From contig JAOTVS010000008.1 in the NCBI GenBank assembly GCA_029863275.1, forward strand, positions 1 through 54,626: a stretch of DNA of 54,626 nucleotides, written 5' to 3'. Numbering within the stretch: position 1 is the first letter of the stretch; the number at the start of each line of letters is the position of its first letter. Origin of the DNA: Candidatus Nitrosopumilus sp. GTDB lineage: Archaea > Thermoproteota > Nitrososphaeria > Nitrososphaerales > Nitrosopumilaceae. Below, piece after piece: positions 856-37,356 of the stretch. A program made the translations under genes and the position numbers. The notes under the pieces are model-generated. The model saw only the letters and a program-made list of their open reading frames with translations, was not told where the DNA came from and searched no databases.

Positions 856-2891
856 ATAGATATTATTGCAACAAAGGCAGATACAAAGACAATCGCAATT
901 GTGTTGAGTAATTTAATTACGGTGTTAAGGGCAGGACCAGCAGTATCTTTGTATGGATCGCCAATAATATCACCTACTACTGCAACTTTGTGAATTTCAG
1001 ATCCTTTTTCGCCTTTCATCTCAACTAGCTTCTTAGCGTTGTCCCATGCACCGCCAGTGTTTGCTAAGTGATATGCCAATAAGATCCCAGTAACGACTGC
1101 ACCCATCAATAATCCTGCCACTGCAGTTGGTCCTAACAAAATACCTAAAATTATTGGAGAGATAATTGCAACAATTGCAGGTTTCCAAAGTTCTTTAATT
1201 GAGGCAACAGTGGCAATATCCACACATTTGGCATAATCAGGCTTGGATTTTCCTGTAAGAATCCCAGGATCTGCTTTGAATTGCCTTCTAACCTCATCAA
1301 CCATTTTTCCTGCAGCTCGAGAAACACCGTTGATTAATTGACCTGTGATAATAAATGGAATTAAACCACCAATCAACAACCCGACAATAATTGCAGGATT
1401 GGTCAAACTGTAATCTAATTCTAGCACGCCTTCAAAGATATGGGATGCTTCAAATTGAAATGCTTGAATCATTGCCAAAGCAGCCAATGCAGCACTTGCA
1501 ATTGCAAATCCTTTGGTAACGGCTTTAGTAGTATTTCCGACTGCATCTATTTCATCAGTAACTTTACGGTTTTCCTCACCCATTCCAGTCATCTCAACAA
1601 TTCCTCCTGCATTATCTGCAATTGGACCAAATGCATCTATGCTTAGAACAATTCCTGCCAGACTCAACATTGCCATTGCAGTAAGAGAGGTTCCAAATAT
1701 TCCATAAAGTACTGGATCTGCACCTTCTGGAGCAGCTGCTGATGCAATGCTATAAGAAACGATTATTGCAATAACCAGTGCAATCATAAATGGTCCAGTT
1801 GATTGCATTCCTTTGATTATTCCCATTAACGTTAATGAGGCATACCCCCATTTTGCAGAGTCTGCAATTTCTTTTACCGGTTTTTGTTTGTAACTGGTGT
1901 AATAATCTGTAATTTTTTGAATTATTGGAACTAAGATTACTCCAATTACTGTGGATCCAAACAAAGCATATGATGCAGAAGAGTCACCAATAAATTGTGT
2001 AATAAATACAAAGTTCAATCCAATGGCAATAGCTGCTGAAACATAAAATGATCGATTAAGCGGTTTCATTACATCAGTAATATTTTTAGAGCCTACAATT
2101 ACAACTCCAATGATTGATGCAATCATTCCCGAAGAGCCAATTAAAAGTGGATAAAGGAAAAAGTTTGGAGCTCCAATTAATGCCGCTATTAATAACGCTG
2201 CAAGAATTGTAACAATATAAGATTCGTAAACATCAGACCCCATTCCTGCTGCATCACCTACATTATCGCCCACATTATCTGCAATGGTTGCAGGATTCCT
2301 TGGATCATCTTCTGGAATATTTGCTTCAACCTTTCCTACTAAATCTGCTCCCATGTCAGCTGCTTTAGTAAAAATTCCTCCCCCAATTCTGATAAACAAT
2401 GCAATAAGACTAGCTCCAATTCCTACACCTGCAATCGTAATTGGGTCGGGGTAAATCATGTAAAGACCGGTAATTGCCAAAAGTGCCATTGCCGGTACGG
2501 CAAGACCAACAGTAGCTCCACCCCTAAAGGCCATAGCAAATGTTTTTCCTAGTCCACTTCCACTTAGATTAGCAGCTCTTACTGCTGCTTTTACAGTGAT
2601 TTTTAATGAAATAATTCCTGCAACTGCTGAAAGAGCCGCACCTACGGCAAATGCAATGCCATTTGATGGTGTAAGGAACACTCCAATGATAACTGTTAAT
2701 GCTATTGCTACGGGAATAATAATTTTCATTTCTCTTTTTAGAAATGCCGCAGCTCCTTCCTTGACTGCATTTGAAATTTCCATCATTTCCTTTGTTCCAG
2801 AAGGTTGTTTTGTAATCCATGCAACCAATCCTCCTGCAACTAAAAATGATGCAATACCTGCCATAAAGGGCAGAATTTCAGCAAATTCCAT
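852..2891 (-). CDS. hppA: Membrane-bound proton-translocating pyrophosphatase, K+-independent type
   Basis: A 679-residue, multi-spanning membrane protein that couples hydrolysis of pyrophosphate to ion pumping. The substrate loop is clear: DMGADLVGKVEANIPEDDP, followed by the Asp-rich NVGDNVGDAAGMGSD. A second acidic cluster lies near the C-terminus (VGDIIGDPYKDTAGP). Lys456 in GNTTKAVTKG is the residue that, in studied family members, marks K+-independent enzymes (Ala in K+-dependent ones); it favours H+ pumping. Full length for the family. It would recover energy from PPi released by biosynthesis. The SprT-like gene lies 36 bases upstream on the same strand. Confidence 0.95.
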   Translation of the reverse strand: MEFAEILPFMAGIASFLVAGGLVAWITKQPSGTKEMMEISNAVKEGAAAFLKREMKIIIPVAIALTVIIGVFLTPSNGIAFAVGAALSAVAGIISLKITVKAAVRAANLSGSGLGKTFAMAFRGGATVGLAVPAMALLAITGLYMIYPDPITIAGVGIGASLIALFIRIGGGIFTKAADMGADLVGKVEANIPEDDPRNPATIADNVGDNVGDAAGMGSDVYESYIVTILAALLIAALIGAPNFFLYPLLIGSSGMIASIIGVVIVGSKNITDVMKPLNRSFYVSAAIAIGLNFVFITQFIGDSSASYALFGSTVIGVILVPIIQKITDYYTSYKQKPVKEIADSAKWGYASLTLMGIIKGMQSTGPFMIALVIAIIVSYSIASAAAPEGADPVLYGIFGTSLTAMAMLSLAGIVLSIDAFGPIADNAGGIVEMTGMGEENRKVTDEIDAVGNTTKAVTKGFAIASAALAALAMIQAFQFEASHIFEGVLELDYSLTNPAIIVGLLIGGLIPFIITGQLINGVSRAAGKMVDEVRRQFKADPGILTGKSKPDYAKCVDIATVASIKELWKPAIVAIISPIILGILLGPTAVAGLLMGAVVTGILLAYHLANTGGAWDNAKKLVEMKGEKGSEIHKVAVVGDIIGDPYKDTAGPALNTVIKLLNTIAIVFVSAFVAIISI

Positions 2892-2927
2892 ATTATACTC
2901 AGCTTGCCTAAATCTTGGAAATATAAA

Positions 2928-3305
2928 TCAAATAGCAGAGATTGTTGCTCTTTTTCGATATGGTAAAAATGTTTTTCCTCTTAGTCCCTGACGAACTAGT
3001 TTGTTGAATCTTTTACCATGTGCAAGATATGGAAATCTCAAATGAATTAGTTCATGAACAAGAGTGTTTTCAAGTGTTTTCTCATCAGGGATTTTCCTCA
3101 CGTTAATGAAAACTAAATTGTACTGCAAATAAGATACACCATAATATTTGTACGCAGAAGTTCTTCTACCTTCTGTCATTTCTTTAGGCATATCTAAGAC
3201 CTCTTTTGTAGATAGAAGAATCCGTGGTTCTGGAATAGAAAAACGGCTCGAATAGATTCCAATTTTTTCTAATATTTCTAATTGAAGGTCAGGGGTTAAT
3301 TTCAC
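2928..3305 (-). CDS. SprT-/YgjP-like zinc metallopeptidase domain protein
   Basis: A 125-residue soluble protein with a GTG start. It carries the zinc-peptidase signature HELIH near residue 90, followed about 10 residues later by a third possible ligand in AHGKRF. This HExxH...H arrangement and the compact size fit the SprT-like/YgjP (WLM-related) group. These proteins are small metallopeptidase domains without an obvious secretion signal. Substrate is unknown. It lies directly upstream of hppA on the same strand and may be cotranscribed with it, though no functional link is evident. Confidence 0.7.
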   Translation of the reverse strand: MKLTPDLQLEILEKIGIYSSRFSIPEPRILLSTKEVLDMPKEMTEGRRTSAYKYYGVSYLQYNLVFINVRKIPDEKTLENTLVHELIHLRFPYLAHGKRFNKLVRQGLRGKTFLPYRKRATISAI

Positions 3306-3507
3306 AATGTTTTTTAAATTAATTGATGTTTATCTTAGAACGTTAATTTTTTGTACAAATAGAGTATAACGCATTTGATAATAATAAATTGTGCAAAAAA
3401 TTCTAGTGTTGTTTATTTTGCTCGTTTCTATAAAGATGAATTAATAGGGTCAGATTATTTTATAGTGTAATCACGAATCATACAGCCACCGTCTCATCAC
3501 ACCCCAA

Positions 3508-4016: not shown

Positions 4017-5129
4017 TTAATTAGTACTAGCCTCTGGAGCAGATTCTTCATTGTTGTTTTCAGATGCCATTTCTTCTTGCAACCTTGATGCAAGAATGCT
4101 GCATTGACCAGCAATATTTTTTGCAGCCTTTCTAAATGCAATAGCACTTGGAGAATCAGGGTTTGAAATCATAATTGGTTTGCCTAAGTCAGAACCAGAC
4201 ATTATTCCAGAGTTTAAAGGAATTTCACCCAGAAAAGGAATTTTAAACTGTTCGCTTATTTTTTTGGCACCACCATCACCAAAGATATAGTGTTTATCAT
4301 TACAGTTAGGACAAATAAAGTGACTCATGTTTTCTACAACACCAATAATTGGGACATTTAGTTTTTCAAACATTCCAATTGCTTTTACTGCCACATTACT
4401 TGCAACATCTTGAGGAGTCGTTACTACTAAGATTCCGGTAATAGGAATTGTTTGTGCAAGTGTTAGTGGAATATCACCTGTTCCTGGTGGAAGATCTACA
4501 ATTAGATAATCCAAGTTAGACCAATTAGTATCAACCAAAAATTGTTTTAAAATACCAGAAATAATTGGACCTCTGTAAATTGCAGCTTGATGAGCTTGCT
4601 CAGCAAAGAAACCAAACGATACCACTTGAAGTCCATTTGAGTCTGCAGGCTGTAGTTTATTGTCTTCTACTTCCATATACCCATCTTTCATTCCGAGCAT
4701 TAATGGAATACTTGGACCATAGATATCTGCATCAAGTAAACCAACTTTAGCTCCAGTTTGAGATAATGCCAAAGCCAAATTCAGTGATACTGTAGATTTT
4801 CCAACACCTCCTTTTCCGCTTGCAACACCAATGATATTTTTCACCGTTTTCATCGCAGTGTCTTCATCCAGTGAACGACCTTCCATAACTTTAGCAGTAA
4901 CATTAAGATCAAATTTCTTTACATCATTTAACTCACCAATTACTTTTCTGACATCATCTTCAATCTCGACATTAAATGGACATGCCGGAGTTGTAAGCTC
5001 CAAAGTAAATTTTAGATTGCCATCGTTAAGCTCCAAATCTTTTATCATTCCCATTGAAACAATATCTTTTTTCAAGTCCGGATCAATTACAGTACTGAGT
5101 TTTTCAAGAACTTGATCTATGCCAACCAA
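4017..5129 (-). CDS. Mrp/NBP35-type Fe-S cluster carrier ATPase with N-terminal MIP18-like domain
   Basis: A 370-residue protein. Residues 1-85 form a MIP18/DUF59-like domain containing TTPACPF. Residues 95-345 form the ParA/MinD-like ATPase with a deviant Walker A (SGKGGVGKST at about 104-113), DADIYGPS and the LIVDLPPGTGD block. The CPNC motif in the C-terminal third is the bridging Fe-S site of the family. This two-domain architecture is usual for Mrp/ApbC carriers that hand clusters to apo-proteins. The C-terminal 25 residues are acidic and probably disordered. Starts with TTG; no in-frame ATG lies nearby upstream. The divergent RNA polymerase operon shares the 117-base promoter region. 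Confidence 0.93.
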   Translation of the reverse strand: MVGIDQVLEKLSTVIDPDLKKDIVSMGMIKDLELNDGNLKFTLELTTPACPFNVEIEDDVRKVIGELNDVKKFDLNVTAKVMEGRSLDEDTAMKTVKNIIGVASGKGGVGKSTVSLNLALALSQTGAKVGLLDADIYGPSIPLMLGMKDGYMEVEDNKLQPADSNGLQVVSFGFFAEQAHQAAIYRGPIISGILKQFLVDTNWSNLDYLIVDLPPGTGDIPLTLAQTIPITGILVVTTPQDVASNVAVKAIGMFEKLNVPIIGVVENMSHFICPNCNDKHYIFGDGGAKKISEQFKIPFLGEIPLNSGIMSGSDLGKPIMISNPDSPSAIAFRKAAKNIAGQCSILASRLQEEMASENNNEESAPEASTN

Positions 5130-5246
5130 TGGTGAAAACGGCCTGTTACTTTATTTAAACATAAGTCAAATAGAATACCCTCAAAAGCATATAATATCCA
5201 CAAATTCTTTCTTAAAATCAACCTAAATTACCCAAAGATTCATAAA

Positions 5247-5876
5247 TTGAAATTTGAGGAAATATCACAGTTGTTTTCTATATCTACTTTAGGTGATGTC
5301 GTTAGGATTCCCCCAAGCTTGTTTGGAACTACACTAAAGAAAGCAGCATTGAATATTCTCAAAGAAAAGTACGAGAGTATGATTAACGCTGATTTGGGTT
5401 ACATTATCATGATTTTAGATGCCAAAGTAGAAGAGATGGGAAAAATGATAGCAGGAGATGGTGGAACTTTCCATAAAGTTGAATTTGATGCTTTAACTTT
5501 TTATCCAAAACTTCAAGAAATAGTTCAAGGAGAAATTGTAGATATTACAGACTTTGGAGCATTTGTAAGAATAGGACCAACTGATGCGCTATTACACCTA
5601 TCACAAGTTATGGATGATTATCTAAAAAGTGATGTAAAATCTGGAATGATTCTAGCTAATCAAAGTGGAAGAACATTAAAAGTTGGATCAACTTTACGTG
5701 CAAGAATTACGGCAGTTTCGTTAGGTAAAGCAGCTACAATGGGAAAAATTGGAATCACATGCAGACAGCCATTCCTTGGTGCCAATGAATGGATTGAAGA
5801 GGAAATAAAAAAGGCAAGTGGAGGTTCGGATGAATCTGCAAAGTCCACAGAAGAAGTAAAAGCTGAGGCAAGTTAA
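5247..5876 (+). CDS. rpoE1: DNA-directed RNA polymerase subunit E' (Rpo7/Rpb7)
   Basis: Archaeal Rpb7 homologue that forms the polymerase stalk with Rpb4 and helps open the promoter. The N-terminal RNP-like domain contains DVVRIPPSLFGT. The S1/OB domain follows from about residue 90 (GEIVDITDFGAFVRIGP, DALLHLSQ). The longest frame starts at TTG 5247. The TTG at 5271 gives MFSISTLGDVVRIPP, which matches the usual N-terminus better, and it has a purine-rich GAGGA (5257-5261) at ribosome-binding distance, so it may be the true start. The tail is acidic. Spt4 follows after two bases. Confidence 0.93.
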   Translation: MKFEEISQLFSISTLGDVVRIPPSLFGTTLKKAALNILKEKYESMINADLGYIIMILDAKVEEMGKMIAGDGGTFHKVEFDALTFYPKLQEIVQGEIVDITDFGAFVRIGPTDALLHLSQVMDDYLKSDVKSGMILANQSGRTLKVGSTLRARITAVSLGKAATMGKIGITCRQPFLGANEWIEEEIKKASGGSDESAKSTEEVKAEAS

Positions 5877-5878
5877 AG

Positions 5879-6067
5879 ATGGCCCGAGAAATGGCTTGTA
5901 GAAAATGCAAGTTTGTTACCATTGGTAAAGTTTGTCCCAACTGTAAATCATCAGATTTAACACCTGATTGGAATGGAGTGGTCTTAATAGTAGAGCCAAC
6001 ACATTCTCAAATAGCAGCTACTCTTGGTATTAAAACAAAAGGCAAGTATGCCATCAAAGTGACATAA
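5879..6067 (+). CDS. spt4: Transcription elongation factor Spt4 (RpoE'')
   Basis: A 62-residue zinc-ribbon protein with four Cys at positions 7, 10, 19 and 22 (CRKC, CPNC) followed by the conserved SDLTPDWNGVVLIVEP and the terminal GKYAIKV. This is the archaeal Spt4, which pairs with Spt5 (NusG) to keep RNA polymerase processive. It starts two bases after the stop of rpoE1, the usual archaeal arrangement, so it is cotranscribed with it. Full length for the family. Confidence 0.95.
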   Translation: MAREMACRKCKFVTIGKVCPNCKSSDLTPDWNGVVLIVEPTHSQIAATLGIKTKGKYAIKVT

Positions 6068-7437: not shown

Positions 7438-8394
7438 CTAACTAATTGCAAGCATTCTATCTATTGCCAACCTTGCCTTGTCTGCGATTTCTTTAGGTAC
7501 AGTAACCTCGTACTTGTCTTCAACTAGAGAGTCATATACTTTTTCTAGAGTGTTCATTTTCATATATTGGCATTCTGCCTTATCTGATGCAGGAAGAAAT
7601 GTTTTGCCAGGATTTTGTTGTCTCATACGATACAAGATTCCAGTTTCCGTTGCTACAACAAAGTTTTTTGTAGCAGAGTCATGTGCGTGATTTAACATTC
7701 CTTCGGTAGACAATATTGAGACTTTTCTATCATCATAGCTCCCTGATGCCAAATCATACATCATTGGAGTGGTGCAACTGCATTCTGGGTGAATTAAAAA
7801 TTCAGCTTCTTTCATAGAATTTAATTTTTCTGTAACATCATCTGGAGTAATTCCTGCATGAACGTGACATTCACCTGCCCAAATATGCATATTTTTTCTT
7901 CCAGTCATCTTTGCAACGTAAGAGCCCAAAAACATATCAGGTAAAAATAAGATATCCTTTTTTTCAGGGATTGCCTTTACAACATTTACTGCATTTGATG
8001 AGGTGCAACAATAATCCAGTTCGGATTTAATTTCAGCAGTAGTATTTACATATCCAACTGTAATTGCATTAGGATTTTGTTTTTTCCAATTTTTTAATTC
8101 ACCTAGTGTAATAGAATCAGATAGTGAGCAACCTGCTTGCAAATCCGGAACTAATACTTTTTTGTTAGGACTGATAATTGCAGCAGTTTCTGCCATAAAG
8201 TGAACACCACAAAACAAAATTGTTTTTTGGTCAACTTTGGCTGCTTGTCTCGATAGACCTAAAGAGTCACCTGTAAAATCGGCAACATCTTGAATGCCAG
8301 GTATTTGGTAATTATGAGCTAGAATTACGACATCTTTTTGTTTTTTTAGACGTGTAATCTCTTCTTGTAATTTTGAAGTATCTTGAACTAACAT
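7438..8394 (-). CDS. nadA: Quinolinate synthase
   Basis: A 318-residue [4Fe-4S] enzyme that condenses iminoaspartate with dihydroxyacetone phosphate to quinolinate. Motifs seen are ILAHNYQIPGIQDVADF near residue 25, FCGVHFMAETA, the DLQAGCSL loop and YVNTTAEIKSELDYCC. Three Cys that fit the cluster ligands lie in DYCCTSSN, HPECSC and KAECQYM. Starts with ATG. nadX (aspartate dehydrogenase), which would supply iminoaspartate, lies 94 bases upstream on the same strand, consistent with a nadX-nadA transcript. Confidence 0.95.
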   Translation of the reverse strand: MLVQDTSKLQEEITRLKKQKDVVILAHNYQIPGIQDVADFTGDSLGLSRQAAKVDQKTILFCGVHFMAETAAIISPNKKVLVPDLQAGCSLSDSITLGELKNWKKQNPNAITVGYVNTTAEIKSELDYCCTSSNAVNVVKAIPEKKDILFLPDMFLGSYVAKMTGRKNMHIWAGECHVHAGITPDDVTEKLNSMKEAEFLIHPECSCTTPMMYDLASGSYDDRKVSILSTEGMLNHAHDSATKNFVVATETGILYRMRQQNPGKTFLPASDKAECQYMKMNTLEKVYDSLVEDKYEVTVPKEIADKARLAIDRMLAIS

Positions 8395-8488
8395 AGTACA
8401 TAATAAAATAATGAATTATTGAATTTAAAGAATAAGAAGATGCCCATTATATTATCAAATATTGGCAATACAGGCAATTTTTGCCATA

Positions 8489-9307
8489 TTATGTACCAAT
8501 TTGAATTTCATTTGAGCAATATTTTCTCAAAGTTTCTATCGCAGAAAGAATTGCCAATCTGCTTGTTTTAGGATTACTGGAATCAGGATAATTTTCAATT
8601 GTAAAAGTCATTTTTCCAAAAATTCCTGAAGCTTCAATATGATGAGTATTTTTATCAGTTTTAGGATCTGCTACCAATTTGACTTTGGTGTTTTCACTTC
8701 CCATACCAGTAAGAGACAATAAAGCTGCTACGTTGATGTTTGCAGGAAATAGAGTAACTGCTTGTTTTGCAGTACCTTGAAAAATCACAGTTTCTGAATC
8801 AATAGAGTCCAAATCAATTTGTGCGGTTTCAAAAAATTTTGCCCCTTTTAGGGATCGTGGATGTTTTGTTGTAGTGATGGATAAAGAATCTAATTCGTTT
8901 TGAACAGATTTTATTCCATCCAAACCTGCAATTGCGCCAGATGGAAGATAGATTGTTTTTTTGAAATCTTTACATGCATCAGATAAAATTTCATAGATAG
9001 ACTCGTCAAGTAATGCCCCTGCACTCATAATCATCAAATCTTTTTTATTTTGCAAGATACTCAATGCAATATCTTTCACTGCATCTTGTGATGCAGCTTC
9101 AACGATAATATCAATTGGATTTGATGATAATAAATGAGGATTTTCAGATATGATTGGAGTGTGTGTTAATTTTTCAACTAGTTTGGATGATGCAGTTTTG
9201 GATTCATCATAAACATGTGTTAGTCGTGCTGGAATTTGTCCAGAGTCAATTGCCTGGGCTATTTGAGTTCCAATAGCCCCGCACCCTAACAAACCAATTT
9301 TCTTCAT
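8489..9307 (-). CDS. nadX: L-aspartate dehydrogenase
   Basis: A 272-residue NAD(P)-dependent enzyme that oxidises aspartate to iminoaspartate, the first step of NAD synthesis in organisms lacking NadB. The Rossmann motif GLLGCGAIGTQIA opens the protein. Family blocks include DIIVEAASQDAVKD, MIMSAGALLDE and YLPSGAIAGLDGIKS, and the C-terminal half has NINVAALLSLTGMGSE and HHIEASGIFGKMTFTIEN. Starts with ATG. It sits immediately upstream of nadA, which uses its unstable product, supporting channelling or coordinated expression. Confidence 0.93.
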   Translation of the reverse strand: MKKIGLLGCGAIGTQIAQAIDSGQIPARLTHVYDESKTASSKLVEKLTHTPIISENPHLLSSNPIDIIVEAASQDAVKDIALSILQNKKDLMIMSAGALLDESIYEILSDACKDFKKTIYLPSGAIAGLDGIKSVQNELDSLSITTTKHPRSLKGAKFFETAQIDLDSIDSETVIFQGTAKQAVTLFPANINVAALLSLTGMGSENTKVKLVADPKTDKNTHHIEASGIFGKMTFTIENYPDSSNPKTSRLAILSAIETLRKYCSNEIQIGT

Positions 9308-9491
9308 TAAATAAATTAAAATATTATCTCCTAATTAATTTAGTCAATTATCACCGATTGACTATAATCTAAAATTTGTCGTAGATTGGCATTATCAAAG
9401 ATAATTTTCCACTGTTCTTTTCAGGGTAATTGCGATTCAAAAAGTGGGATTCATCATCAATCTATTTAAGATTAAAAAAAGAAGTATTACT

Positions 9492-10517
9492 GTGAGTAAA
9501 TTGTTAAAAAGTAAAATTATTTTTGGATTTACTTTATTTTTGATATGTTCTATGGTAATTCCTGTAAATGCAGAAATTGAAGCACCAAAGAAACAATTGA
9601 AGAAAGGAATCCCCATTGAAAATATTACTTGCAAGATTGGCCTTGATCTAATAATTCGAAATAATGGTTCTCCAGCTTGTGTAAAACCCAGCACTGCAGA
9701 AAGGTTTCAAAGTTTAGGGTTAGCCCAAAGCCCAATTAAATTCACAGATTTAGAAAACAAAGTTGAACGGTCGCAAGTATCAAAGGAGTCAAATGTCCAA
9801 TTCAGAGATGCTCAAAATCAAATTGAATCTATTCCAGCATCAGGAGGTTCATCTGTAAATTTTTACGTTACAGATGATGATTTGAATATTGCCCATGCAG
9901 GAGTGGATATAGTATTCACCGCAGGGCTACTAGAATTTACTATCAATGGAATTCCTGTTGAGGGCCCTGAAAAAATGATTGAGACTGGTCCTGATACAGG
10001 GGTTTTTTATGCAAAGTTACAGCTTCCTGAAACGATTAATGGAAGACCCATTAATCAAGACGACATTGTTGAGGTGCGGTATATGGATGAATCCGATGTA
10101 TCTGGTGAGAAACGGGTTTTGGTTAAATCAATTTCTCTGAGAAACACGTATGCTCAGATTCAGACATCTGCAGATAAAACAAGAATAGGCCATGAGTTTA
10201 TCCTTCGTATCTATGAACCGGATGCAAATAGAGACTCCAAAGATGTTGATAGAATTCCATTAAACAGATTAGAATACCGAGGAGAAGGAGGAATTAGAGT
10301 TTCTCTATCTAATCCAAGTTTTGATGCAAGCTCTAGCTACCTTCTTGAAACTGGTGAAAATACAGATATTTTTGAAGTAAAGATAAAAATTCCTCGCCAA
10401 ATTGATGGAGATGTAGTCCACATTGGAGACTGGTATGAAATCCGTTATATAGATACCACCACACCGTCTGGAACCTCGGAAAAAATAATCCTAAAAGGAA
10501 AAATTGGATTAAAATAG
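9492..10517 (+). CDS. Secreted protein with two S-layer-like beta domains
   Basis: A 341-residue exported protein if read from GTG 9492; a longer frame starts at GTG 9444 but would put 16 basic residues ahead of the signal. From 9492 the N-terminus is a textbook signal peptide with a likely cut after NA in PVNAEIEAP. Two similar beta-sandwich units follow, each with a D-D-x-N block and an ETG-T-F motif (TDDDLNIAHAG/ETGPDTGVFYAKL and EPDANRDSKD/ETGENTDIFEVKI). The same pattern occurs in thaumarchaeal S-layer-type surface proteins. No membrane anchor is visible. Role inferred: cell-surface structure. Confidence 0.65.
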   Translation: MSKLLKSKIIFGFTLFLICSMVIPVNAEIEAPKKQLKKGIPIENITCKIGLDLIIRNNGSPACVKPSTAERFQSLGLAQSPIKFTDLENKVERSQVSKESNVQFRDAQNQIESIPASGGSSVNFYVTDDDLNIAHAGVDIVFTAGLLEFTINGIPVEGPEKMIETGPDTGVFYAKLQLPETINGRPINQDDIVEVRYMDESDVSGEKRVLVKSISLRNTYAQIQTSADKTRIGHEFILRIYEPDANRDSKDVDRIPLNRLEYRGEGGIRVSLSNPSFDASSSYLLETGENTDIFEVKIKIPRQIDGDVVHIGDWYEIRYIDTTTPSGTSEKIILKGKIGLK

Positions 10518-22874: not shown

Positions 22875-23396
22875 ATGAACAAATATTCGATTATTACTGT
22901 AATTGCAATAATTGTAATAATTATTCCTATATTATATGGACTATGGAGCATCTATGCTGTTGAACAATTGCAGGTAAGAACTCCAAATAGTGAATTTAGA
23001 TATTTTGAAATGTCAAATGATGAGAAAATCCAATTATGCAACCCTTTACCATTTTTTGTTAGTTTCAACGGATTGAAAATTTCAACTTATTATGCAGATG
23101 AACTTAAAGGGGAATTTGAGCTTGGACAAACAAAAATTGAGCCACAAATATCTGAAGTCATAGAGGGAAATTTTTACTCGGAAAATTTTTCAGAATCACA
23201 GTATTTTTTATTACACATGGATTGGGAATTTTATGATGAAGGGGCAATCAGATTAGACCCAAGCAAAATGCTAGTAATAACAAATTTTGAGACTAAAATA
23301 ATTGGAATAATACCATATCAAACTACAATTACACAGTCAGGTTTTGAGTTTATTCAAATGATGAATGAAGACTCAAAATGTGGAAATTCTGATTAA
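22875..23396 (+). CDS. Membrane-anchored hypothetical protein
   Basis: A 173-residue protein with ATG start. One N-terminal membrane helix (IITVIAIIVIIIPILYGLW) anchors an extracellular domain of about 140 residues rich in beta strands, with a possible disulfide between the Cys in KIQLCNPLPFF and the Cys near the end (DSKCGNSD). It follows the WW-repeat gene by four bases, so both are probably made together at the cell surface. Its stop overlaps the stop of the convergent PTPE-repeat gene. No family recognised. Confidence 0.6.
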   Translation: MNKYSIITVIAIIVIIIPILYGLWSIYAVEQLQVRTPNSEFRYFEMSNDEKIQLCNPLPFFVSFNGLKISTYYADELKGEFELGQTKIEPQISEVIEGNFYSENFSESQYFLLHMDWEFYDEGAIRLDPSKMLVITNFETKIIGIIPYQTTITQSGFEFIQMMNEDSKCGNSD

Positions 23397-24241
23397 GAAG
23401 ATTTGCTTGCTTTAGACATAATTCCAAGAACTATACCAATTATTCCGGCAATAACAAAGGCTGCAACAAAACCATAAATTAATTCTCTTCCGAGTGATTT
23501 GGTAATAGAGGAAGAAGATCCAGATTTAGCGATACATATCCCATCCTTTAGAATAGCACCTTCTCCACATCTTTCATCCACAATACAAACTCCATTCTTT
23601 AGAATGGTTCCTGATCCACATTCAGTTTTTGGCTTATCATCAACTTTAACATCATTTGTTGGTATAAGAGTAAGATCTGGTGTTGGTTCTGGTGTTGGTT
23701 CTGGTGTTGGTTCTGGTGTTGGTTCTGGTGTTGGTTCTGGTGTTGGTTCTGGTGTTGGTTCTGGTGTTGGTTCTGGTGTTGGACTTCCAAATACGGAGCC
23801 AATAATTTCAACTTCATCTGTTCCTGAAGGAAGCGTTATACTCAAAGTTCTAGTTTTTGCAGTTGTTATGGTTTCAAAATAATTAGGTTCATCACCATCA
23901 GCTAAAACAATAAAGGCGTCATCTTCGCCCAGATAAAGAGAATCAAAGAAACTTCGCTCAAATGTTACATCTAAGATTCCAGGAGAATTTCCAACATTTA
24001 CACTAAATATTAGTGAGACAAAATCCAGGTCTGCCTCGATTGAAGAAATAGATACACCTTCACCAAAATATTCAACTTCAAATGCATTTCCTTCAACAAT
24101 AACTGTTGCAGTTTCACCATAAACTGAATTGGATATAGATGATAAGAAAATCAATCCAAGAGAAATTATGATAATAAAATTAAGATTAGAAATACTTTGT
24201 ATTTTGGGTATTATGTTAGGTATGCCCTGATATTTCAACAA
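23393..24241 (-). CDS. Surface protein with PTPE linker and Cys repeats, C-terminal membrane anchor
   Basis: A 282-residue protein starting at TTG, with an N-terminal signal (FIIIISLGLIFLSSISNSVYG), a beta domain to about residue 150, then a Pro-Thr-Pro-Glu linker of eight to nine units. Two short Cys modules follow: CGSGTILKNGVC and CGEGAILKDGIC, a repeat typical of thaumarchaeal surface proteins. The C-terminus is one membrane helix (YGFVAAFVIAGIIGIVLGI) with a basic tail. The arrangement suggests a stalked domain anchored to the membrane. Function unknown. Confidence 0.68.
   Translation of the reverse strand: MLKYQGIPNIIPKIQSISNLNFIIIISLGLIFLSSISNSVYGETATVIVEGNAFEVEYFGEGVSISSIEADLDFVSLIFSVNVGNSPGILDVTFERSFFDSLYLGEDDAFIVLADGDEPNYFETITTAKTRTLSITLPSGTDEVEIIGSVFGSPTPEPTPEPTPEPTPEPTPEPTPEPTPEPTPEPTPDLTLIPTNDVKVDDKPKTECGSGTILKNGVCIVDERCGEGAILKDGICIAKSGSSSSITKSLGRELIYGFVAAFVIAGIIGIVLGIMSKASKSS
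23676..23783 (-). repeat. 12-base tandem repeat coding PTPE
   Basis: Nine almost perfect 12-base units (tctggtgttggt on the plus strand) encode the Pro-rich linker of the surface protein. The antisense strand also stays open through it, producing a shadow frame. Confidence 0.9.
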
Positions 24242-25731: not shown

Positions 25732-26502
25732 TCATATTCTTGAGAAGAACAGATTTAATGAATTTTCAAACATTTTGTTTAAATCCCTTAGACGAGAAGA
25801 ATCTATAGACAAAGTTTCTTCATTAAACCATTCCTTAGCCAGGTACAAATCCCTATTCATCTCAACTTGAATCCAAGGAATGGGATTATTGCCATATGTT
25901 TTGGTAATATGTCCCCCATGAAATGGATCATTTAGTGAGATATTCCTACGGTCAATCTCATATGATTCAGACATACATGACGCTAAAAGTTCAATCATTT
26001 GACTAGATGATGTTTTTCCATCTTGATTGGAAAGACAAAACATCGGTCGTTTCTTTTTATTTCCATCAGGAGACACGTTTGGTGCCACAGATGCCATGGA
26101 ATGACAATCCAAACACAATTGTAAATTCAATTCATGAATACTTTTTTGAATTGACTTGTGATACGGTTTGTAATACATTTCAACTAATACACTTCTTAGA
26201 GAATCATCAGGTTCTCCACCTGGTTTGTAAATTGGTTTTTCATAACATGTAGCACTTTTTATCATGCCATCTGGGTTCTGAGGAGGGAGATCTTGCAATG
26301 ATCTATTGAGATCTACAAACGCTCTTGCAATATTTGTCTTAATCACACCTTCCACTTTTTCACCTAAATCATACATTTCAATTACAAAAGGGTCAGAATC
26401 ATCAAACAGATCCTTTTCAAGTATACATAAATGACCATCAAGCTCTGGAGGTTTTTTTGTTCCACCATGTGGAATAGAAAGCAAAACAGGTAGTTTGGTC
26501 AA
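25732..26502 (-). CDS. N-formylglutamate amidohydrolase family protein
   Basis: A 256-residue soluble enzyme of the N-formylglutamate amidohydrolase/HutG2 family. Motifs seen are SIPHGG near the N-terminus, ANIARAFVDLNRS (read TNIARAFVDLNRS here), LCLDCHSMASV and the late EMNRDLY. The His and Asp residues in these blocks coordinate the metal in the family. It would release glutamate from N-formylglutamate or a related N-acyl amino acid. Its TTG start overlaps the stop of the gamma-glutamyltransferase gene (TTGA), so the two are translationally coupled and may act in one catabolic route. Confidence 0.85.
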   Translation of the reverse strand: MTKLPVLLSIPHGGTKKPPELDGHLCILEKDLFDDSDPFVIEMYDLGEKVEGVIKTNIARAFVDLNRSLQDLPPQNPDGMIKSATCYEKPIYKPGGEPDDSLRSVLVEMYYKPYHKSIQKSIHELNLQLCLDCHSMASVAPNVSPDGNKKKRPMFCLSNQDGKTSSSQMIELLASCMSESYEIDRRNISLNDPFHGGHITKTYGNNPIPWIQVEMNRDLYLAKEWFNEETLSIDSSRLRDLNKMFENSLNLFFSRI

Positions 26503-28130
26503 TCCAATCCCCCAGCAGTCCCATCACGCCTAATTTCTGCAACACCCTGGAATCCTGGTTGGGTTTGTAGTTTCATTACAGCATGAATTGCACCATGATA
26601 AAATGAATATCTATCCTTCACTGAAATTTCATATCCCATTTCTTTGAGAAAATTAATTATTTCAGTACGAAATCCACCTTCCTCTATGCTAATTGTACCA
26701 CCTATAGCACAATGAAACCTTGGTCTTTTGATTGCCTCATCCATTGATAGATCACCGTCAACTATTCTAGAAAGAAACTGAGTTACAGTTGAAAAAATTC
26801 TCTGACTTCCTGGACTGCCCATTACAATCCATAATTTTTTGTTAAGAAAAACCAGCGCAGGTGAAACTGAAGTCCATGGTATTGCATTTGGTCGAATAAA
26901 ATATGGATGATTGGGATTTGTAAACTCAAATGCAGACATGTAATTATTGTAAAGAAATCCAAGACCTTCGGCTGCTGCTTTTGAACCATATGCAAGCTCT
27001 ATTGATTGAGTTATCCCAACAGCATTTCCCTCATCATCCATTGTTGAAAGATGAGTTGTATCTTCTCCACCAAAATCAGGATCTATCATTGGCAAGGTTG
27101 CATCCATGGAATTGTGAATTGATTCTGCCATATGTTTTGCAAAGGATCTTTGTAAATGTACTTTGTCTTGAATTTGATCATAAGTATGACGATTAAAAGG
27201 AACTTGAACTCTGTGTAAAAATGCCTTTCTAAATGTCTCTGCAACAAAATGATATGAGCTAGGTTTGGAGCTACGTAAAAACTTGGAAGGTAGATGATTA
27301 AGCATCATTAATGTAAGTAACAAAGTTCTTCCTGCAGCCGGTGGAGGTAAGGTTACAACTGACACACCCCTATAATTTCGACTGAGGGGTTTTTTCTCCA
27401 TGGGTTCTGGTATGTAGGCTAAATCTTCCTCACGAATCAAGCCATGGTTTTGTTTCATATCCTGTTCAATTTTTTTTGCAATTGGCCCATGATAGAAACT
27501 ATCAAAACCTTGTTCTGCAATTATTGATAGTGTATCAGCAAGATCATCCTGAATGAATCTATCACCCACATCATAAGGAATAAGTCCGTCTTTAAGGAAA
27601 TATTTTGCCCCAGATTTGGATTTAATTGAAAGAAAACTTTCTAACTCTCTTATTTGTAAATCATGCTGAAGTTGTGTAATTTTATAACCCTTTTTTGCAA
27701 TCCTAATCGATGGACTAACTATTTTGGCCCAATCTAGTCGACCATATCTACTATGTAAAAAACCAATTGTTGCAAGCGTACTTGGAACAGTAGTTGCCTT
27801 GTATCCAAATTTACGATTTCTTACTTTGGAAAAAATCGATGAATGTGCCAAAGATGGAGAACGGCTTGAACCATCCACTGCAATGGATTTTCCATTAATG
27901 TGGATTATTGCCATTGATTGACCACCAATCCCTGATGCTTGAGGTTCACAAACTCCTAATGCCAAAGCAGTGGCACATGCGGCATCTATTGCATTACCAC
28001 CTTTTTTGAGCATTTCAACTCCTGCTTTTGTGGCTTTAGGAAACGCAGATGCCACCATTCCTTTTTTTGCAAATGAAAATTTTTTGTCATCAGAAACCGT
28101 GAAAGAATTTTCTATTTTTTCAATATTCAT
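26499..28130 (-). CDS. ggt: Gamma-glutamyltransferase family protein
   Basis: A 543-residue N-terminal nucleophile hydrolase. Features are GVCEPQASGIGG, the DTTHLSTMD block whose Thr (about residue 358) is the catalytic nucleophile exposed by autocleavage, GITQSIELAYGS and the late VMGSPGSQRI. Length is normal for the family. No signal peptide is visible, unlike the periplasmic bacterial enzymes, so it may be cytoplasmic. Thaumarchaea are not known for glutathione, so the substrate may be another gamma-glutamyl compound. The N-formylglutamate hydrolase follows with a 4-base overlap. Confidence 0.92.
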   Translation of the reverse strand: MNIEKIENSFTVSDDKKFSFAKKGMVASAFPKATKAGVEMLKKGGNAIDAACATALALGVCEPQASGIGGQSMAIIHINGKSIAVDGSSRSPSLAHSSIFSKVRNRKFGYKATTVPSTLATIGFLHSRYGRLDWAKIVSPSIRIAKKGYKITQLQHDLQIRELESFLSIKSKSGAKYFLKDGLIPYDVGDRFIQDDLADTLSIIAEQGFDSFYHGPIAKKIEQDMKQNHGLIREEDLAYIPEPMEKKPLSRNYRGVSVVTLPPPAAGRTLLLTLMMLNHLPSKFLRSSKPSSYHFVAETFRKAFLHRVQVPFNRHTYDQIQDKVHLQRSFAKHMAESIHNSMDATLPMIDPDFGGEDTTHLSTMDDEGNAVGITQSIELAYGSKAAAEGLGFLYNNYMSAFEFTNPNHPYFIRPNAIPWTSVSPALVFLNKKLWIVMGSPGSQRIFSTVTQFLSRIVDGDLSMDEAIKRPRFHCAIGGTISIEEGGFRTEIINFLKEMGYEISVKDRYSFYHGAIHAVMKLQTQPGFQGVAEIRRDGTAGGLD

Positions 28131-28277: not shown

Positions 28278-28613
28278 ATGGTACAGACTAAAGCTCAAAG
28301 AAGTGCAGCTGCACTAAAGGCAGCCAGAACTAGAAAAAGAAATGCAAAGCTAAAAGCCGAAGAGGCTTCAAGGTCTTCTTCAAAAAGAAGAAAAACAACA
28401 GCATCTAGAAAAAATTCTGCTCAGACTGCACCTAAAAAAAGTAGTGTAAAAAGAACTGCAAAACGTACAACTGCAAAACGTACAACTGCAAAACGTACAA
28501 CTGCAAAACGTACAACTGCAAAACGTACAACTGCAAAACGTACAACTGCAAAACGTACAACTGCAAAACGTACAACTGCAAGAAAAATTTCTACACAAGG
28601 AAAAAGACGATAA
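28278..28613 (+). CDS. Histone-H1-tail-like basic repeat protein
   Basis: A 111-residue, extremely basic protein (ATG start). Residues 1-55 are Lys/Arg/Ala/Ser-rich (AALKAARTRKRNAKLKAEE). Then eight Ala-Lys-Arg-Thr-Thr units follow, and the tail is RKISTQGKRR. There is almost no acidic or hydrophobic content, so the protein is probably disordered and binds DNA or RNA, like histone H1 tails or bacterial AlgP/Hc1-type proteins. Thr/Ser spacing would allow modification. The gene stands alone between ggt (divergent) and a DUF6659-like gene. Confidence 0.7.
   Translation: MVQTKAQRSAAALKAARTRKRNAKLKAEEASRSSSKRRKTTASRKNSAQTAPKKSSVKRTAKRTTAKRTTAKRTTAKRTTAKRTTAKRTTAKRTTAKRTTARKISTQGKRR
28454..28582 (+). 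repeat. 15-base tandem repeat coding AKRTT
   Basis: Eight perfect 15-base units of aactgcaaaacgtac run from 28454 to 28573, with a partial ninth. No synonymous differences are seen between copies, pointing to recent expansion or gene conversion. Confidence 0.92.
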
Positions 28614-35190: not shown

Positions 35191-37356
35191 TTAATGTCCA
35201 GCACATTTGTAAAGCACAGACGCCAATAATGCTGCACGATCTACAATGCTATCATGGACAATACTTTCCTTAGTAGACCTATAGTTATGTCCTAACGGCC
35301 CAAAGCCATCTAAAGCTGGTAGTGCTGTTGGAACATTACTTATATCAGAAGATATTATTTGAGAGTATTTTTTTATTTTAATTTCATGTTTTTTAGCTAA
35401 ATCTTCTACTAGTTCATAAAATTTTGTATCTGAGGGTTCTTCTGATACTGGTGGCCTAGTTTGAATTTTGTTAATCGCAACATCTAATTTTTTGAAACCA
35501 GATTCTCTTTTTTTCATTAAAGTTTGGATCTTTGAATCAAGCAGTTCTCCAAGTTTTTCAGTTTTGTAGGCACATGTTAATGATAATGTTGCATAGTTAG
35601 GAGAATGTCCGTGAGATCCTTGGGCAATTACAGCTGTGGTACTTAATCGATAATTTTTTTCGTCCTTTGATATTTTTTCAATTGCAGTCAATTTTTTTCC
35701 TAGTACAGGTATTATTCCATGAATGTTTGAATTTGATTGATCCGTTGAAGTGAATCGTATTTGATAATCTTTCCGTCCATAACAGGTTGTAATAATTCCA
35801 CCATCTATGCTGCCAGATTTTAATCCTATTATATATCGAGATTTTTTGGAATAAAATTTTACAAATTTCTTGCTGAACCTTCCACCCAAACTATCATCCG
35901 TGGTCAAGAATATAGCACAACGAATTTTTTTCAATTTTTTTGCAAATCGTAATGCATGCAATGCACCCAACATTACTGCAATTCCCCCTTTACTTTCAGC
36001 TATTCCTGAACCTACAATATGATCGCCGTTTTCATGGTAATTTATCAAATCACCAGGACCATAATGTGTGTCAATATGTGAAATTAACAAAACGTCGTTT
36101 TCAGGTTCGGAGTGATTTTTATAATAATGAAAATCTCCCACATCTTGTTGTTTATGAGTTTGTTCAGAAAAGCCCAAGTGGTTCAAGCGTTTTGTAATTT
36201 TTGCTCCAAGGAGATTCACATTATCAATGTTGTAAACGTGAGTGTTAGTATTTACGAAATCCCTTAAAGTATCTTTAATACTTTGAAGGTGCCCTCTCAA
36301 ATAAGTTCTTGAAACAACTCGTAATGGCTGGGTAAGATCAACTTCGCTTTCAGGGTGTACCATTGAAGAACCGAAATATCTAATGACAGCAACATCAAGA
36401 ATTTTATTAATTAAAGATTCATACGTATAACCTGCAGTTTTAGCTGCGTAATAAAATGAACCGCCAGTACCAAGACTTGCCATTGAATTTAATTCAAGAA
36501 TATAGAGATTTTGATCCTTGTCCATTCTAAAATCAACCCTACTGTAATCATTTAATCCCAAGGAGGCAAATGCATTTTTGCACATTTGTATCATTTCTTG
36601 TTCTTTTTCCTTGGATAATTTTGCAGGACATGTTTTGCCCACGCCGCCTGTTTTCTTTTTATCAGTTATGGTTTGTATTTGATCAGGATGATCCAAATTA
36701 ATTTCAACTATTGGGAGAATCTCCATGTTAGGATTATTCCCAAGTATTCCTACAGCAAATTCACGTCCTGAGATAAATTGTTCTACGAGAATATCTTGTT
36801 CAAATTTTTCGATTTGTACTTTTACTGCAGCTCTAAGATCTTCCCAATTATCCACTACCTCCATTCCCATGGATGTGGATTCTAGTTTTGGTTTAACAAT
36901 AACTGGAAAAACTAAATCATCATGTTTATCCTCAGGAGTTCTAAAGACCCAAAATCCTGGAGTAGATATGTTATTTTTTTGTAAAATAATTTTAGTCATT
37001 ACTTTGTCTTGAACAATTGCATGTCCTGCCGGTCCTGATCCTATGTAAGGAATGCCAAGCATTTCCATCATTGCAGGTACATGTGTGTAACGATTTTGAC
37101 CCTGTATTCCATATGCCATATTGAAAACCATTCCAGGGGTTTCGCCTGCAACTACTTTTGGCATAAATTCGCGTAATTCATCTGCAAGATGAATATCGCC
37201 TTCAACTACTTTTACTGTATGGCCACCTTTTTCTAAGGCCCTTGCAACTCTCTCAACAGCTTTGGAACTATAATGTTCCTTTGTGGTCATTCCAAAGACA
37301 TTGATTACATCGTTAGGATCAATTTGAGTTTCGTTATAAATTAGAGCTACTTTCAA
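35191..37356 (-). CDS. ATP-grasp ligase (D-Ala-D-Ala ligase-like) fused to an M20-peptidase-like domain
   Basis: A 721-residue two-domain protein. Residues 1-335 form an ATP-grasp ligase: GMVFNMAYGIQG, PYIGSGPAGHAI, VIVKPKLESTSMG, LVEQFISGREFAVG and the Mg-binding LYILELNSMASLG. Residues 385-715 resemble an M20 amidohydrolase: ISHIDTHYG (His427, Asp429), GSGIAESKGG (Glu454), TTDDSLGG (487-489) and the late GPLGHNYRSTKE. The canonical Asp of the second motif is Glu, and the catalytic Glu-Glu pair is Asp-Ser, so catalysis is probably changed or lost. Archaea make no peptidoglycan; the ligase likely joins other amino acids. Start choice is ATG. Confidence 0.85.
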   Translation of the reverse strand: MKVALIYNETQIDPNDVINVFGMTTKEHYSSKAVERVARALEKGGHTVKVVEGDIHLADELREFMPKVVAGETPGMVFNMAYGIQGQNRYTHVPAMMEMLGIPYIGSGPAGHAIVQDKVMTKIILQKNNISTPGFWVFRTPEDKHDDLVFPVIVKPKLESTSMGMEVVDNWEDLRAAVKVQIEKFEQDILVEQFISGREFAVGILGNNPNMEILPIVEINLDHPDQIQTITDKKKTGGVGKTCPAKLSKEKEQEMIQMCKNAFASLGLNDYSRVDFRMDKDQNLYILELNSMASLGTGGSFYYAAKTAGYTYESLINKILDVAVIRYFGSSMVHPESEVDLTQPLRVVSRTYLRGHLQSIKDTLRDFVNTNTHVYNIDNVNLLGAKITKRLNHLGFSEQTHKQQDVGDFHYYKNHSEPENDVLLISHIDTHYGPGDLINYHENGDHIVGSGIAESKGGIAVMLGALHALRFAKKLKKIRCAIFLTTDDSLGGRFSKKFVKFYSKKSRYIIGLKSGSIDGGIITTCYGRKDYQIRFTSTDQSNSNIHGIIPVLGKKLTAIEKISKDEKNYRLSTTAVIAQGSHGHSPNYATLSLTCAYKTEKLGELLDSKIQTLMKKRESGFKKLDVAINKIQTRPPVSEEPSDTKFYELVEDLAKKHEIKIKKYSQIISSDISNVPTALPALDGFGPLGHNYRSTKESIVHDSIVDRAALLASVLYKCAGH

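Follow-up and report, generated by a model that had tools for sequence, protein, structure and literature searches.

Gene content of the locus

The window analyzed here, a 54,626-nucleotide contig stretch from Candidatus Nitrosopumilus sp., carries at positions 35191 to 37356 of the minus strand a single intact open reading frame that encodes a protein of 721 amino acids. The frame opens with a TTG codon and has no internal stop; homologues start at the identical residue, many of them with ATG. Its N-terminal half (residues 1 to 330; 36367 to 37356, minus strand) is a Ddl-type ATP-grasp ligase domain, matched by PF07478 over residues 143 to 320 (E value 1.5e-34, 119.7 bits against a cut-off of 24) and, among solved structures, best by the Ddl enzyme 5d8d (4.1e-28). 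The C-terminal half (residues 345 to 721; 35194 to 36324, minus strand) belongs to the M20 family, with a PF01546 match over residues 423 to 716 (2.9e-9, 37.6 bits against a cut-off of 24.6). A GNAT domain was not found in the fusion by Pfam.

The closest relative of the M20 half among solved structures is carboxypeptidase G2 (CPG2; 1cg2, 1.3e-10 by sequence). An AlphaFold model of the full fusion gave pLDDT values mostly between 70 and 95 in the M20 half and below 50 for residues 1 to 168; the model was thus used for the M20 fold only, and statements on ligase geometry derive from sequence alone. Structure prediction had been proposed as a check on the original prediction of an ATP-grasp ligase fused to an M20-like domain, and a Foldseek search with the predicted M20 model ranked CPG2 first (1.4e-25). 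The intact reading frame, the two Pfam matches and the homologues confirm that architecture. A longer version of 928 residues, in which low-complexity insertions separate and interrupt the domains, was seen at L061 (4402 to 7185).

Two further genes lie 7 kb from the fusion on the same strand, and had been missed in the original prediction. The first, at 26499 to 28130 (minus strand), encodes an Ntn hydrolase of the gamma-glutamyltransferase (GGT) family (PF01019, 6e-113; TIGR00066, 375.6 against a cut-off of 357.85), in which the Thr nucleophile (T358) is present. The second, at 25732 to 26502 (minus strand), overlaps the end of the GGT gene by 4 bp and encodes an enzyme of the N-formylglutamate amidohydrolase (FGase) family (PF05013, 4.2e-45) that keeps the conserved His, Asp and Glu positions of its family. 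In the same region, an ORF at 28278 to 28613 (plus strand) encodes a Lys/Arg-rich protein of 111 amino acids with tandem KRTTA repeats that resembles a histone-H1-like DNA-binding tail, and a surface protein is the probable product of an ORF at 23393 to 24241 (minus strand), whose translation contains a stretch of PTPEPTPEP repeats and a hydrophobic segment at the C terminus.

Distribution of the fusion and its partners

The fusion was found in 37 of the 200 Nitrosopumilaceae genomes sampled. All 37 also encode the GGT, and the remaining 163 genomes contain neither gene. The nominal probability of this agreement, 3e-41, is overstated since the genomes are related and the counts are not phylogenetically independent. 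Of the 37 genomes with the fusion, 36 also have the FGase gene, and the one exception (G001) stops at a contig edge; the FGase gene immediately follows the GGT gene in 35 of 40 matches. Of 38 fusion copies, 36 are located at most 13 kb from a GGT gene, and for 14 the distance is no more than 200 bp, with both genes on one strand. The order fusion, GGT and FGase on one strand was observed at L051, L057, L059, L060, L061, L062 and L068. At L041, L052, L053 and L055 the GGT and FGase genes are separated from the fusion by a few genes, among them those for CorA and K+ channels. At L042, three diverged GGT paralogues (1737 to 3446, 4214 to 5905 and 8219 to 9865; 59 to 64% to the GGT of the window) flank one copy of the fusion.

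GGT and FGase are obligate partners of the fusion, and the three genes form a module. Within genera the module occurs patchily, which favors its gain or loss as a unit. The co-occurrence of the trio points to an as yet uncharacterized pathway for a small peptide-like compound.

Genes encoding the two domains separately in close relatives would have spoken against a genuine fusion, and a search of 200 Nitrosopumilaceae and 398 Thermoproteota genomes detected none; the handful of matches that were split correspond to contig ends or to drafts interrupted by stop codons. Standalone Ddl-like ligases do occur in other Nitrosopumilaceae (L063 to L066), but are distant (30 to 33%) and sit on a long branch. 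A scan of IMG/VR revealed no virus-borne copies of the fusion. Neither the fusion nor the module was found described in the literature searched, which did not extend to the amidoligase survey of Iyer et al.

The ligase half is probably not a D-Ala-D-Ala ligase

The ATP-grasp catalytic residues K118, K155, E192, R273, D275, E288 and N290 are invariant among the homologues, as is E27, which we align with the first-substrate Glu of DdlB. The fusion thus shares with the DdlB/VanA class the fold family, the ATP-grasp residues and the first-substrate Glu (E27) and Ser (S162). However, the omega-loop Tyr and the HSL motif that form the second D-Ala site of this class are absent, and DKKK and GGSF stand in their place. 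Scores also remain below the cut-offs of the NCBIfam Ddl models among the matches listed, the best reaching 168.6 against 243 and another 153.4 against 245.65. In addition, Mur_ligase_M and Ala_racemase_C were not found in the same genome, which is 98.95% complete and in which the controls were positive. We reject an ordinary Ddl because of the scores below the model cut-offs, the lack of the substrate motifs and the absence of peptidoglycan genes, and the role outside peptidoglycan synthesis that had been proposed for the enzyme gains support from the genome content. Taken together, these features suggest that the ligase half is probably an amino-acid ligase of another specificity.

The M20 pocket appears to be rebuilt and maintained

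In CPG2, a His, a bridging Asp, two Glu and a second His bind the metals, a further Glu is catalytic, and the HxD motif also contains an Asp. Alignment to 1cg2 places H427, E454, S489, K513 and R693 of the fusion at the five metal-ligand positions, the corresponding CPG2 and fusion motifs being SHMDT and SHIDT, GIADDKGG and GIAESKGG, TDEE and TDDS, SFEP and GLKS, and YHS and YRS. Fold, overall alignment and the HxD motif are common to both proteins, whereas in the fusion the bridging Asp is replaced by Glu, the base Glu by Asp and three zinc ligands by Ser, Lys and Arg.

Conservation of these positions was evaluated in 27 homologues of down to 53% identity, including a subfamily at about 55%. 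The His and Asp of the HxD motif (H427-I428-D429; 36070 to 36078, all pocket coordinates being on the minus strand) are invariant in this set, as are E454 (35995 to 35997), D488 (27/27) and K513 (35818 to 35820), which replaces a zinc-ligand Glu. S489, which forms with D488 the counterpart of the base Glu and a zinc-ligand Glu (35890 to 35895), is present in 26 of 27, and R693 (35278 to 35280), at the position of the last zinc-ligand His, is Arg in 25 and Lys in the other 2. Five of the seven catalytic-equivalent columns are invariant, as compared to 51 of 377 across the M20 domain (P = 6e-4). Median dN/dS values were 0.05 in the ligase half and 0.11 in the M20 half. The HxD, Asp and Glu-pair motifs are intact in two other M20 proteins encoded by the same genome.

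The assignments of the original prediction, Glu454 for the bridging Asp and Asp488-Ser489 for the Glu-Glu pair, were right by the CPG2 alignment, and K513 and R693 add two zinc-ligand losses to the three changes it had named. It had also considered that the catalytic Glu residues might be supplied elsewhere; no aligned alternative was found in the CPG2 alignment or among the 27 homologues, in which the remaining zinc ligands are replaced as well. The domain therefore has the fold and the PF01546 signature of an M20 metallopeptidase, but neither its five metal ligands nor its general-base Glu, at whose position D488 is found. Pocket conservation and dN/dS rule out a decaying pseudogene. The near-invariance of the pocket in the 27 homologues argues for a re-tooled pseudo-hydrolase that has been rebuilt and kept, and this pocket would be metal-free.

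Relatives of the ligase and the GGT

A search of 72,556 plasmid records with the ligase half gave its best matches on rhizobial symbiotic plasmids (42.8%). In a tree of 42 ligase domains, which was sampled without bacterial chromosomes and carries a long-branch warning, the fusions and the rhizobial ligases were joined with support of 100/100, apart from the standalone archaeal ligases. The rhizobial sister clade (for example, Bradyrhizobium WP_011090946.1), 43 to 44% identical, resembles the archaeal module in that a GGT of the same type is encoded two genes away in Bradyrhizobium, and the GGT of this cluster is the best match of the window's GGT among 745 plasmid records. In contrast, the rhizobial ligases are standalone proteins devoid of an M20 domain, and the genes of the Bradyrhizobium cluster encode, in order, a lysine 2,3-aminomutase, the GGT, a 7TM protein and the ligase. 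No FGase match was found in the rhizobial stretches examined.

Other genes near related ligases are those for an aminomutase and panD in Mesorhizobium, a diaminobutyrate transaminase in S. meliloti, and KamA, SbnA and a diaminobutyrate transaminase in Thioflavicoccus. In six other Thermoproteota (L111 to L114, L116 and L117), a related ligase, 31 to 38% identical, adjoins a gene for a KamA homologue, and the LAM_C domain was present in both homologues tested (L111 and L117). These ligases differ from the fusion in being standalone proteins beside the KamA gene, while some of their kin are fused to other domains. A C-terminal GNAT acetyltransferase domain follows the Ddl-like ligase at L115 (5189 to 6868) and L117 (8394 to 9896), and a methyltransferase domain precedes it at L118 (5321 to 7324) and L119 (4305 to 6305), all in other Thermoproteota.

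These neighbors of related ligases suggest that the wider ligase group uses beta- or diamino acids as substrates, although an aminomutase beside the rhizobial ligase is no proof of what the archaeal enzyme uses. The genome under study has a KamA-like gene (L105, 2115 to 3479, on contig C100), but it is unlinked to the module and its product lacks LAM_C. This KamA-like gene is found in 128 of the 200 genomes: all but one of the 37 that have the module (36), and 92 of the 163 that do not. Given this broad distribution and the lack of LAM_C, the case for a fourth module member is weak, and the KamA-like protein is only a weak candidate for the supply of the substrate. This radical SAM gene is immediately followed by a gene for a type I glutamine synthetase.

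Possible functions of the module

We consider it somewhat more probable than any other outcome taken together (about 0.55) that the fusion is the ligase of a three-gene module, composed of the Ddl-M20 fusion, the GGT-family enzyme and the FGase-family enzyme, that makes a peptide-like metabolite, with the M20 half binding or scaffolding without cutting. The ATP-grasp half would activate a carboxylate with ATP and couple it to an amine on another amino acid, for which a diamino, beta-amino or glutamate-like acid is the likeliest choice. The M20 half retains the CPG2 fold but, having lost the two-zinc site and gained the basic K513 and R693 at metal-ligand positions, may bind the substrate or product or hold the enzymes together. 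The GGT- and FGase-family enzymes might then remove or transfer acyl groups of the product, for its maturation or turnover. We infer the ligase activity and its substrates, the non-catalytic role of the M20 half and the order of the steps from sequence. A bolder proposal, to which we would give slightly less than an even chance, is that this is a so far undescribed archaeal biosynthetic module for a peptide-like metabolite whose ligase and GGT are shared with rhizobial symbiotic plasmids, and in which a former zinc-peptidase domain with conserved Ser, Lys and Arg serves as a metal-free binder of substrate or product.

The identity of the product as a compatible solute is speculative. In this special case, which we regard as possible yet clearly the less probable, the module would make a dipeptide-like osmolyte in outline as N-acetylglutaminylglutamine amide (NAGGN) is made. 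The NAGGN system consists of a GNAT/ATP-grasp fusion, an asparagine-synthase-like amidotransferase and an M42 peptidase. Both systems encode an ATP-grasp dipeptide ligase together with a peptidase-family gene, but M20-like, GGT and FGase parts take the place of the NAGGN set in the module. Genes for a K+ channel, a CorA-type protein, a Kef-type antiporter and MscS are found around the module in the window and in several relatives, and marine Nitrosopumilus lineages have gained osmolyte genes and MscS channels in the course of osmotic adaptation (PMC7554672). However, these neighbors vary, the tight copies at L051, L057 and L060 have no channel genes within the stretch seen, and an osmolyte of this kind was absent from the literature found.

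The original prediction had offered a bifunctional or a substrate-holding enzyme for peptide-like metabolites. Substrate holding and the peptide-like metabolite remain the best reading, whereas a second, hydrolytic activity is unlikely. Under the latter, the M20 half would still hydrolyze a peptide or an amide by a one-metal or metal-free mechanism via H427, D429, E454 and D488, so that the protein would switch between synthesis and degradation. The invariant HxD motif, acidic residue at position 454 and D488, as well as the purifying selection on the pocket, are compatible with such an activity, but three of the five zinc ligands have become Ser, Lys and Arg, of which Lys and Arg would repel a metal, and the module already encodes two dedicated hydrolase-family partners.

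Slightly less likely still is a salvage route, in which GGT and FGase would degrade acyl-glutamate or gamma-glutamyl compounds and the ligase would recycle the parts. Acyl-glutamate bonds are the classical targets of the GGT, FGase and CPG2 families, all three of which meet in the module. Against salvage, the GGT has no apparent signal peptide and its recognition of gamma-glutamyl groups is doubtful. R114, N411, Q430 and D433 of the E. coli GGT, which bind the alpha-amino and carboxyl groups of the gamma-glutamyl moiety, correspond to S88, E378, Y397 and A400 in the window's GGT, with an Arg conserved two residues further on; with these changes, the enzyme may act on something other than gamma-glutamyl compounds. 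Finally, a D-Ala-D-Ala ligase serving an envelope polymer, for which the nearest solved structures being Ddl enzymes would speak, is highly improbable in view of the missing Mur ligase and alanine racemase C domain, the Ddl model score far under its cut-off and the absence of the omega-loop Tyr and HSL motif.

Ammonia-oxidizing archaea rank with the most abundant microbes of the sea, and much of their small-molecule metabolism is still to be assigned. A trio of genes that comes and goes together, and that only a scattered minority of species carries, provides a compact and testable lead to a metabolite yet to be assigned. The ligase-GGT pair shared with rhizobia suggests transfer between bacteria and archaea, and the M20 half illustrates cleanly how a metallopeptidase has become a conserved domain that is poor in metal.
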